64,000 nt of DNA from Chitinophagales bacterium (GTDB lineage Bacteria > Bacteroidota > Bacteroidia > Chitinophagales > CAIOSU01). The DNA is taken from positions 682,001 to 746,000 of the forward strand of contig BPHB01000002.1 in the NCBI GenBank assembly GCA_026003335.1, written 5' to 3'. This document shows, piece after piece, positions 3,897 to 22,851 of the stretch; position 1 is the stretch's first letter; each line of letters starts with the position of its first letter. The notes beneath the pieces were generated by a model. It worked only from the letters and a program-made list of their open reading frames with translations. It had not been told where the DNA came from and did no database searches. Position numbers and translations under genes: made by a program.

Positions 3897-5207
3897 TCAA
3901 TTAACCGGAATATGACTCAATAGCCGGATTGCACGCACGTCACTGTAATCATACTGATAGAGGCCATCCTGTCCGATAAGTATTAACACGTTGCTGGTAG
4001 CAACTGGAATGACATCATACGCGTGTATATTGCCATTGTGTAGCAGCAGATGCTGATCAATGGTGGACACGTCACTGGCATCATAAATTTTCAGGCCTGC
4101 CTGCCCGTCACAAATGAATAATTTTCCCCGGTCAATACCAATCCCGTGCGGATTGTACATGGCATAGGTTTTTACCAACTGAGGATTATACGGATTGCTG
4201 ATATCAATCACTTCTAACTGATTGGTAAAGCCCTGACAGGGGGTTCCTGACCGAAGCGTAACATAGGCATACCGATCATCAGCCACTACCGGATCGCAGC
4301 TGGTTACGTGACTGAATGTAGAAATTTGTGTGGGTTGAGACGGATTGCTGTTATCATAAATATACATCCCGGTGGTGGAGCCGATGAACAACTTGTCCTT
4401 ATAGGGGAAGATGGTTTCAATGTTAAACCCGATGTTGATTTTTGTCCATATCACTGGATTATCAGGATTGGCAATGCTGATAAGCTGCATATCGGAGTTG
4501 TCAATGACATAGAGGTAGTCGGACACGATGGCAAAACGCGCCATAGAGCCTCCCTGCCCGACATTTATAGTAGCATTGGTAATACTTGGCGCCTGGGTAT
4601 TACCGGCCAATACCGGACCAGCGAAATCAATTTCTGGCAGGCCTCCCCAATAATAGTAGTAAGGCTGCGCTTCCTGCCCACAGGGAATGTCAATAACCTG
4701 AGTCTTATCGGTGAGCCGCCATCCGGTGATGACGCCTTTCTCCGAATCAGCATAATAATAGCCCAGATCAGCTATCCGCTGAGGAAAAATGTTCTCCAGG
4801 CGCTTTATCTCGGCAACATTTTCAGGGTTAGTGATATCCACTGCCACCAGATCAACATAGCTATCTGCATAGAGGATATTACTCCGCACTGCAATATCCA
4901 CATTGCCGGGAATAGAAATGAAGGCTTTATTGACCGGTGCAGCCGGATTACTGTTGTCAATGACGTGTACTCCTTCATTCACTTCATTGATGAACAGAAA
5001 CCCGCCCAGTATATAAATCTTTCCGGGATGCTTCAGTGCACGTGGTGCTTCTGAGGCAACCGGCTGGCGCAACTGAGCGTAATCCAGATATACCGGCTCG
5101 TAAATTTGATAGGTGTAGTGAGTTGTGCATTTGTCTTTCATACAGCCTGCCAGCAAAATGACGGCAGATGTCAATGTCAGGAGCAGTGAGCATGATTTTG
5201 AGTACAT
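3897..5207 (-). CDS. LVIVD-repeat lipoprotein (beta-propeller-like)
   Basis: A 436-residue surface or periplasmic lipoprotein with a signal peptide ending in lipobox LLAGC. From residue ~60 on there are repeated blades of the LVIVD type: phrases such as VHVIDNSNPAAP, LVAVDITNPENV, LQLEVID-like segments, MYIYDNSNPSQP and LEVIDISNPYNP recur about every 45 residues. Such repeats are thought to form beta-propellers. No catalytic motif is visible and its ligand is unknown. It is transcribed away from the small Kazal-like gene at 5279, so the ~70-base gap holds a divergent control region. Domain call is firm; the biological role is not known. Confidence 0.85.
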   Translation of the reverse strand: MYSKSCSLLLTLTSAVILLAGCMKDKCTTHYTYQIYEPVYLDYAQLRQPVASEAPRALKHPGKIYILGGFLFINEVNEGVHVIDNSNPAAPVNKAFISIPGNVDIAVRSNILYADSYVDLVAVDITNPENVAEIKRLENIFPQRIADLGYYYADSEKGVITGWRLTDKTQVIDIPCGQEAQPYYYYWGGLPEIDFAGPVLAGNTQAPSITNATINVGQGGSMARFAIVSDYLYVIDNSDMQLISIANPDNPVIWTKINIGFNIETIFPYKDKLFIGSTTGMYIYDNSNPSQPTQISTFSHVTSCDPVVADDRYAYVTLRSGTPCQGFTNQLEVIDISNPYNPQLVKTYAMYNPHGIGIDRGKLFICDGQAGLKIYDASDVSTIDQHLLLHNGNIHAYDVIPVATSNVLILIGQDGLYQYDYSDVRAIRLLSHIPVN

Positions 5208-20471: not shown

Positions 20472-20942
20472 CTACCGTTCTACCCTGGGCACAGAGGAAT
20501 AGTTCACTTTTAAGGCGTTGCTTTTTCTCAGTTCCTGTTTTACATCGGAAACAATTCCCATCTTTACCCCTTTATCTACGCGAAGGGCAAAGGTCATGGC
20601 CGGCTGCAGCCGCTCATCTACCTTGGTACGTTCATTTTCCACGAAGGCCGCTATGTCGTTTACCGTAGCAAACTGATTATTTAATTGTATGCGGGGGGCT
20701 GTTCCGAGTTGAGCCTGATATTTTTCAATAGGAGGACCAATGTAGATATAGCTTACCAGGGATTTCCTTTCCAGCTTGGTGAGTTCGGTTGCCTGGGGAA
20801 GGCGGTTTTTTACCTTGAGCTCCACATCCCGCAAAACCGTAACCACCATGAAGAAAAACAAGAGAATAAAGATAATGTCAGGCAGCGATGCCGTGGAAAT
20901 AGTCGGGGTGTGTGCTGACCTTTCTTTTTTGATTTTTGCCAT
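20472..20942 (-). CDS. exbD: ExbD/TolR-family biopolymer transport protein (second copy)
   Basis: A 156-residue single-pass protein. The cytoplasmic start is followed by one transmembrane helix with the key aspartate (SLPDIIFILLFFFMVVTVL, residues ~20-38), the proton-carrying residue of ExbD/TolR, and then a periplasmic domain. Together with ExbB it would form the proton channel that energises TonB at the outer membrane (or a related system). Its ATG overlaps the stop of the upstream exbD by one base. Two different ExbD in tandem are common in Bacteroidota. Confidence 0.9.
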   Translation of the reverse strand: MAKIKKERSAHTPTISTASLPDIIFILLFFFMVVTVLRDVELKVKNRLPQATELTKLERKSLVSYIYIGPPIEKYQAQLGTAPRIQLNNQFATVNDIAAFVENERTKVDERLQPAMTFALRVDKGVKMGIVSDVKQELRKSNALKVNYSSVPRVER

Positions 20943-21484
20943 TATTGTTCTCCTATTGCTTTCGGTTCTGCTTCAGATAGCCGCAGCGGATATTCTTTAG
21001 CTACCATTTTGGCTGCTTCTTTATCCAGGTCTTTATACAGCTTGCCGTAGCGTTGCATAGCATATGCATCTCTCAACTCGCGGTAAGCCGCCTTGAGTTC
21101 ATTTTGCACTTGTATATACATATCATAAGAGGTGCCGCGGTCATTCTGCAGGGATATCACGGCTTCCTGAGGACTGTCCGACAGGTTGGGTTTTCTGCCC
21201 CGGTTGTCAATAAACTCTTTGGCCTTCTTTCTCAGTTCAGAAATCTGCAACAATTCGTTATTTACAAGGAGCTTGTCTTGTGCATTGATCAAAACTATGA
21301 GCACATTTCTGCGGTTGGCTTCCTGTTCCACGGGAGGCACATCCCAAGGAGGGAGCTTGTTTAATATTCCTTTATCCACATCAATGGTTGTGGTCACCAG
21401 AAAGAAAATAAGCAGCAGAAATGCAATGTCAGCCATAGAGCTGGCATTGATTTCATTAGACATTCGGTTTTTGCTCTTGGCCAT
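20942..21484 (-). CDS. exbD: ExbD/TolR-family biopolymer transport protein (first copy)
   Basis: A 180-residue single-pass protein with the conserved helix INASSMADIAFLLLIFFLVT (residues ~12-31), including the aspartate typical of ExbD, and a periplasmic domain containing VPPVEQEANRRNVLIVLINA. Longer than the second copy. It lies between a conserved 107-residue membrane gene and the second exbD; all are on the minus strand and tightly packed, so they form one operon with the exbB gene. Confidence 0.9.
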   Translation of the reverse strand: MAKSKNRMSNEINASSMADIAFLLLIFFLVTTTIDVDKGILNKLPPWDVPPVEQEANRRNVLIVLINAQDKLLVNNELLQISELRKKAKEFIDNRGRKPNLSDSPQEAVISLQNDRGTSYDMYIQVQNELKAAYRELRDAYAMQRYGKLYKDLDKEAAKMVAKEYPLRLSEAEPKAIGEQ

Positions 21485-21514: not shown

Positions 21515-21838
21515 TTAATTGAATGCGTTTTTGACTTCAAAGAAAACGGCAGTAATAATTGCCAAAGCCCCCATGAAAATGGTCATATTTATTCCTGCAC
21601 CAATCAGCTTAACGGCCTGCTGACTATAGTTCATTTTGTTTTCAATGCCTGGAAAATAAAAGTCCCCGGAAGCCGTAAAGTAGGAAATTACTGCTATCAC
21701 TATTATTACTCCTATGCCAATCAGCACTTTCCGGGCTTCTTCAAGGTGTCTCAACATGTACACCGCAGGAAACAATACTGCAGAAAGCATTGCTATAATG
21801 AGCAGGGCATAAGCAAGATACAATCCTATATCAACCAT
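21515..21838 (-). CDS. small membrane protein of the exbB-exbD cluster
   Basis: A 107-residue protein with three hydrophobic segments (YLAYALLIIAMLSAVLFPAV, VLIGIGVIIVIAVISYF, AGINMTIFMGALAIITAVFF). It lies between exbB and exbD, 37 bases downstream of exbB and 30 upstream of exbD, and is transcribed with them. I recognise the arrangement from other Bacteroidota but not a named family. A role in the same energy-transduction complex is likely by position only. Confidence 0.75.
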   Translation of the reverse strand: MVDIGLYLAYALLIIAMLSAVLFPAVYMLRHLEEARKVLIGIGVIIVIAVISYFTASGDFYFPGIENKMNYSQQAVKLIGAGINMTIFMGALAIITAVFFEVKNAFN

Positions 21839-21875: not shown

Positions 21876-22713
21876 TTATTGCGCAACCTTGTATTTGACC
21901 AACAAGTCAACAAAGCTGATTGATGCATCTTCCATATCATGCACCAGGCCGTCTACCTTATTTACAATGTAATTGTAAAACAACTGCAGAATAATAGCCA
22001 CAATAAGCCCGAATACAGTAGTGAGCAACGCCACTTTAATACCTCCGGCTACCAGCGAAGGAGAAATATCACCGGCAACTTCAATAGCATCAAAAGCTTC
22101 AATCATCCCGATCACCGTACCCATAAAACCCAGCATAGGAGCGAGGGCTATAAATAGAGACATCCACACCAGCCCGCGTTCCAACAGCCCCATCTGCACC
22201 GAGCCGAAAGAAACGATAGACTTTTCTACAATTTCAATGCCTTCGGAAACCCGGGATAATCCCTGGTAGAAAGATACTCGCCACCGGGCCTCTGGTAGAT
22301 TTGCAGATTTCTTTTGCTTTCTCCACATTCCCTGAAGAAAGCTCATTTTCTATGTTGGCCAATATTTTTTTGGTATTGACAGTAGCCAGGTTTAGCGTGA
22401 TAATACGCTCAATTGCCAGTGCCAGACCCAAAATAAGGATGATCAGGATAGGCGTCATGAAAGGAACACCACCTTCAATGAAATATTTTTTCAGCAATTG
22501 ATGGCCGGAGACTTTGGTTTGCTGGGCAGCTGCCGGTGCAGCGCCTTCTGCACCAGCCTCATCTGCTTCGGCTGCATTGTCATCGGCAACGGGGGCCTGT
22601 GCTGCTGCTGTATCATTATTACCTCCGAGTGTATCCTGCTGCGCATAGCTAATGAGCTGCATTCCGCTGACAGCGAGGCCCATGAAGAGTAAAAGCACGA
22701 AAATCTTTTTCAT
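21876..22713 (-). pseudogene. exbB: ExbB/MotA-TolQ proton channel gene, disrupted by a one-base frameshift
   Basis: Read as one gene from the ATG at 22713 (the longer in-frame start is a TTG) to the stop at 21876, it encodes a standard ExbB: signal-like N-terminus, an Ala/Glu/Asp-rich low-complexity part, a first transmembrane helix (FMTPILIILILGLALAIERI), then the MotA/TolQ/ExbB core (LAPMLGFMGTVIGMIEAFDA and GLIVAIILQLFYNYIVNKVD). The reading frame breaks near 22265: the first part ends ...SIFLPGIIPGFRRH and the second part continues QGLSRVSEGIEIVEKS only after a shift of one. One extra base in the pair at 22265-22266 (minus-strand CTACCAG instead of CTACAG) explains it exactly. Either an assembly error in an essential gene, or a true loss. 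Confidence 0.88.
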
Positions 22714-22763
22714 ATGGATTAACAAATTTAGGGTTGAAGGATTTTAAAAATTTATTTTTCTCG

Positions 22764-22851
22764 CGGAGAGAGAGGGATTCGAACCCTCGAAACCCTTTTG
22801 GGGTTTACACACTTTCCAGGCGTGCCTGTTCGACCACTCCAGCATCTCTCC
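22764..22851 (-). tRNA. tRNA-Ser (anticodon GGA)
   Basis: An 88-base cloverleaf with acceptor stem GGAGAGA/TCTCTCC, discriminator G, anticodon GGA at 22817-22815 in the loop CTGGAAA, a long variable arm (class II) and the T loop GGTTCGAATCCC. The CCA end is not encoded. It reads the UCC and UCU codons. It sits between exbB (same strand, downstream) and serC. Confidence 0.95.

Follow-up and report, generated by a model that had tools for sequence, protein, structure and literature searches.

A one-base frame break in an exbB gene of a Chitinophagales bacterium, probably an error of the assembled consensus

An exbB gene of a Chitinophagales bacterium is divided over two reading frames by what appears to be one extra base. 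The gene lies on the minus strand of a stretch of 64,000 nucleotides (GenBank assembly GCA_026003335.1, contig BPHB01000002.1, positions 682,001 to 746,000), the whole of which is referred to here as the window. Judged from its context, the extra base is probably an error of the assembled consensus, with a probability of about 0.75. The break is most likely an assembly mistake because similar breaks recur in conserved genes of this assembly, and the corresponding genes are intact in the relatives examined. A preliminary description of the window had named an assembly error, a recent mutation and, as the less likely option, a recoding site; the extra-base breaks in other conserved genes favour the first of these. 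On our best reading, a consensus error ranks first, followed by a real recent mutation. The break would accordingly be absent from the DNA of the living organism, and the real gene would encode an ordinary, intact ExbB of 278 residues.

The two reading frames of exbB

The N-terminal part of exbB (22234 to 22713, minus strand) is read in the frame 22713-22237, beginning with an ATG at 22713 and ending with a stop codon at 22234-22236. By eye, it comprises a signal-like segment, a low-complexity linker, and the first hydrophobic helix. It is out of frame with the remainder of the gene, aligns with read-through residues 1-152, and by itself gave no match in a Pfam scan. The C-terminal part (21876 to 22346 including the stop codon, 22346-21879 without it, minus strand) encodes most of the MotA_ExbB domain. 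It matches PF01618 over profile positions 23-126 of 127 with E = 1.1e-26 and 93.5 bits, the cut-off being 22.9, and the start of this open reading frame lies inside the gene. A member of the MotA/TolQ/ExbB family is expected to be encoded in a single continuous reading frame, whereas the exbB of the window occupies two. One frame change joins both into a stop-free ExbB of 278 residues, and the read-through translation revealed no second lesion in either half.

The frames had initially been joined by dropping one base of the pair 22265-22266. A single ExbB does result from this, but the crossing fits better at 22269-22273 (minus strand). With a profile built from 14 homologous loci, among which L004 and L033 are one and the same gene, this position scored 442.4 bits versus 438.4 bits for 22265-22266, a modest preference. 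The zero-frame codons at the crossing are ATC TTT CTA and a +1 reading is needed to pass from one frame to the other. The residues obtained there by read-through match those of the commonest homologues. The ab initio scan described below, which does not use homology, also flags the break in exbB, at position 22275.

Homologues of exbB in other genomes

Of 112 loci that were compared, two represent the gene of the window itself. The remaining 110 comprise 98 loci of the exbB type, with 95 different protein stretches, and 12 loci of the TolQ type, namely 11 from relatives and one paralogue of this genome. None of the 110 is broken at this point, and all are read in one stop-free frame (exbB type 98/98, TolQ type 12/12). 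Of the 98, 80 come from a set of 212 confirmed loci, of which the best 80 were kept. This selection could hide a broken homologue, because a broken copy would rank lower. In a whole-genome search of 39 relatives, the window's genome not being counted and some genomes being incomplete, 18 were found to carry this exbB type, each as one open frame. The other 21 are without a match of the type, with 19 giving weaker matches only and two giving none. No further genome of the same genus was found for comparison, and a search of viral contigs returned no relative.

The unbroken frame of the homologues argues for a consensus error. It also bears on the idea that the two frames are separate genes that arose through natural gene fission. 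In its favour, the two open reading frames overlap. However, the downstream one begins within the domain, and the cut separates residues that are adjacent in the 98 loci of the exbB type, 80 of which are the best 80 of the 212. Gene fission is therefore disfavoured and appears scarcely credible.

Frame breaks across the genome

For a genome-wide scan, a frameshift-aware ab initio gene finder was written. The sample covered 864 kb of the 3,905 kb of this genome (G000), consisting of the window and 40 stretches of 20 kb each, from contigs C1 and C2 only. Controls were 800 kb from three related genomes (G026, G014, and G001), with a GC content of 0.36-0.46 versus 0.46 for G000. The models of the finder were trained per genome, and for the second G000 sample the two G000 samples were used jointly for training. 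Of 160 simulated breaks, 113 were detected. Detection reached 56 of 83 insertions and 57 of 77 deletions, so extra bases are not markedly favoured. Predicted breaks within 100 nt of the end of a called gene were dropped before counting, and those kept are called interior. The first 464 kb of G000 contained 21 predicted breaks, 15 of which were kept as interior, and for the second 400 kb interior predictions only were collected. For the controls G026, G014, and G001, the numbers were 6, 6, and 2 predicted breaks, with 3, 2, and 2 kept as interior.

Altogether, 27 interior breaks were predicted in G000 (20 extra-base, 7 missing-base) versus 7 in the controls (3 and 4, respectively). A conditional binomial comparison gave p = 0.0005 for extra-base breaks and p = 0.0009 for all interior breaks. 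Some breaks share a gene; counted by gene, the extra-base breaks number 17 versus 3 (p = 0.002). A consensus error leads one to expect that breaks of its kind are unusually frequent in the assembly, and this is what was observed, with 20 versus 3 of the extra-base kind.

The pieces of all 27 breaks, apart from one 47-residue piece of L127, were scanned against Pfam and some of them against NCBIfam. For seven of the 27 breaks, that in exbB among them, the two halves were confirmed to belong to a single gene; each of these breaks has an extra base. The Pfam halves are 2-68 and 63-307 of 309 for an asparaginase, 3-120 and 82-182 for a DUF2490 protein, 1-291 and 290-460 for an aldehyde dehydrogenase, and 1-63 and 56-173 for a DUF4256 protein. 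A Ca/Na antiporter is split into halves 5-153 and 175-310 of the NCBIfam family TIGR00367. The remaining case, an NrfD-type membrane subunit (L198:12842-14279), was, like exbB, confirmed by comparison with relatives. Its open frame has 356 aa, whereas 18 of the 19 relatives searched gave a match, each with a single frame of 466-517 aa. It is the sole match of its search in this genome. Because there is only this match and the genome is otherwise complete, its loss would be easier to credit as an error.

The other 20 predicted breaks were unconfirmed: some correspond to neighbouring or intact genes, others to repeats or a mobile-looking region, and the rest are undecided. Real breaks were rejected at L187, L195 (5203), L123, L128, and L142 (10087), where ordinary neighbouring genes were found instead, and at L191 (7411), where the gene is intact. 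A break predicted at window position 5169 was dropped, the gene being of full length with 437 aa versus 430-468 aa in the best matches of relatives.

Contiguous Pfam halves, the one test applied to both sides, were found for 4 of 27 breaks in 864 kb versus 0 of 7 in 800 kb. With p = 0.07, calculated from the lengths scanned, this excess by itself is suggestive only. When all seven confirmed G000 breaks are counted, p is 0.01, although the NCBIfam and relatives' comparisons behind this value were applied to G000 only. The Pfam scan of the seven control breaks revealed no split family; two of these breaks lie in one place (L156), where no family covers the break.

Two split TonB-dependent receptors come in addition to these counts. 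They lie outside the 864 kb sample, were found by their short frames, and were missed by the scanner. The two shortest of the 22 receptor frames with a plug domain were read, and in each of them the plug is encoded in another frame than the barrel. By the coordinates of the open reading frames, the receptor at L143:985-3361 is of the extra-base kind and that at L144:1175-3579 of the missing-base kind.

At L142:1-4708, a series of frames overlaps on a single strand. It includes an LPD3 domain and a match to a phosphoribosyltransferase, and may represent a single large polyvalent mobile-element protein that is broken at several points. The genes cas1 and cas2 are adjacent at L141:5330-6630.

Consensus error or real mutation

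Insertion-dominated consensus error has been documented for Flye nanopore drafts (PMC8011154), and would bear on the present assembly if it was made in that way. A hint at the cause comes from a repeat array at L136:17800-20000 (about 47,800-50,000 of contig C1 of G000). The array consists mostly of 72-base units of the Dicty_CTDC type, and its host gene is very large, with a match to the Por secretion tail below the cut-off. Three units have 73 bases and show the same one-base excess. From their sequence, the 73-base units seem to combine two versions of the unit, both of which occur in the array. Such units could be the product of a consensus from mixed reads, or of recombination between units, and a mixed consensus would give blends of this kind.

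Other observations speak against a consensus error. The break in exbB is located at a run of just three identical bases, the split receptor at L144 is of the missing-base kind, and 20 of the 27 predicted breaks are unconfirmed. Furthermore, a lineage undergoing real decay would likewise show many breaks.

The consequences of a real break depend on whether the genome holds another copy. The split gene had been described as the only exbB, with the warning that its loss would halt energy transduction if there were no other copy. It is the only one within the cluster, but a search elsewhere in the genome, which had been proposed as a check, identified a second MotA_ExbB gene on contig C1. This gene is intact, encodes 224 aa, and is 39% identical over residues 76-272. 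It is followed downstream by an ExbD and by a TonB/TolA-like protein, whose TolA match is under the cut-off and whose TonB C-terminal match is exactly at the cut-off. In total, the genome contains three TonB_C matches and 22 plug domains. The putative TolQ/ExbB-ExbD/TolR-TonB/TolA-like set on C1 has the MotA_ExbB and ExbD families in common with the window cluster, and with this intact set present, energy transduction might not depend on the broken gene.

A real recent frameshift, either fixed or present in part of the population, could therefore have inactivated exbB, with the second TolQ/ExbB set carrying on. Within the order, the cluster is apparently not essential, since 21 of the 39 relatives, some of them with incomplete genomes, lack a match of the type. 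The lack of a second lesion in both halves would also suit a recent event. On the other hand, the seven confirmed breaks are all of one kind and hit conserved genes, and both exbD genes and the gene of the 107-residue protein next to exbB are intact. A real mutation is consequently regarded as unlikely, and a consensus error is the preferred explanation.

Because the split genes also include conserved ones such as the NrfD-type subunit, the aldehyde dehydrogenase, and two TonB-dependent receptors, claims of gene loss, pseudogenes, or recoding made from this assembly are unsafe pending a check of the reads. Should the reads uphold the breaks, the tolerance of frameshifts could be tested on this list of genes.

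Recoding as an improbable explanation of the crossing

Slippery heptamers are sites of -1 frameshifting. The preliminary description had noted that no such heptamer is seen at the break; the crossing needs a +1 shift, however, and a sequence regarded as prone to this shift, UUU_CUA, is present. PMC5009743 describes the tetranucleotide UUU_Ynn as especially prone to +1 shifts in bacteria, and the zero-frame codons UUU_CUA at the crossing fit this pattern. They are weak evidence for recoding, because any extra T in a TTC codon creates such a site.

If ribosomes shifted +1 at UUU_CUA, some full-length ExbB would be made and the break would be tolerated or even used. Read-through yields residues that are usual in exbB homologues, in line with this idea. 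Against it, all 98 loci of the exbB type (80 of them the best 80 of 212) are unbroken here, and the five localised breaks of this genome share no motif by eye; the breaks of the asparaginase and the NrfD-type subunit could be placed only within about ten bases or more. A tolerated or used shift is thus considered very improbable. Conserved recoding was rejected, as none of the 110 other loci, including the best 80 of 212, shares the break and no motif is common to the five breaks. PMC3711429 reports that prokaryotic frame transitions cluster as pseudogenes and programmed frameshifts, and that recoding clusters are conserved in position and carry motifs. The break in exbB gives an ab initio signal of the same kind as these frame transitions but, unlike such recoding clusters, was found in one genome only. 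The breaks might also be real in a lineage where many genes are translated with +1 shifts, UUU_CUA then being one of several scattered, unconserved tolerated extra bases; this is more improbable still.

The exbB cluster and its naming

On the minus strand of the window, exbB is followed by the gene of a 107-residue protein and by two exbD genes. The small protein (21515 to 21838, minus strand) is located between exbB and exbD, appears membrane-type by eye, and has no Pfam match above cut-off. L003 and L033 have a counterpart at the corresponding position, with 42% and 33% identity. The first exbD (20942 to 21484, minus strand) matches PF02472 with E = 2.9e-21 and the second (20472 to 20942, minus strand) with E = 3.8e-12. 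All three genes had been described as intact, and their open reading frames bear this out. The same order with an unbroken exbB was found in both relatives inspected.

The read-through protein stays below the equivalog cut-offs of both ExbB (TIGR02797, 43.9 versus 206.2 bits) and TolQ (TIGR02796, 56.1 versus 221 bits), and the name ExbB therefore rests on the cluster. A Ton/Tol energiser has an ExbD/TolR partner alongside, and two PF02472 proteins are encoded downstream. Together, ExbB, the 107-residue protein, and the two ExbD proteins would form a proton-driven energiser of the Ton/Tol type, as in Bacteroidota. Just upstream of exbB, a tRNA-Ser(GGA) is located at window positions 22763-22851, and the gene beyond it is presumably serC, judging by its sequence.

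The cluster resembles the Ton cluster of Riemerella anatipestifer, given as exbB2-exbD21-exbD22-tonB2 in PMC4446302, in that a long ExbB of about 30 kDa is followed by two ExbD genes in both. This likeness is one of gene order. The window cluster differs in its split exbB, in the 107-residue protein encoded between exbB and exbD, and in the location of the three TonB_C matches of the genome, which all lie outside the window.
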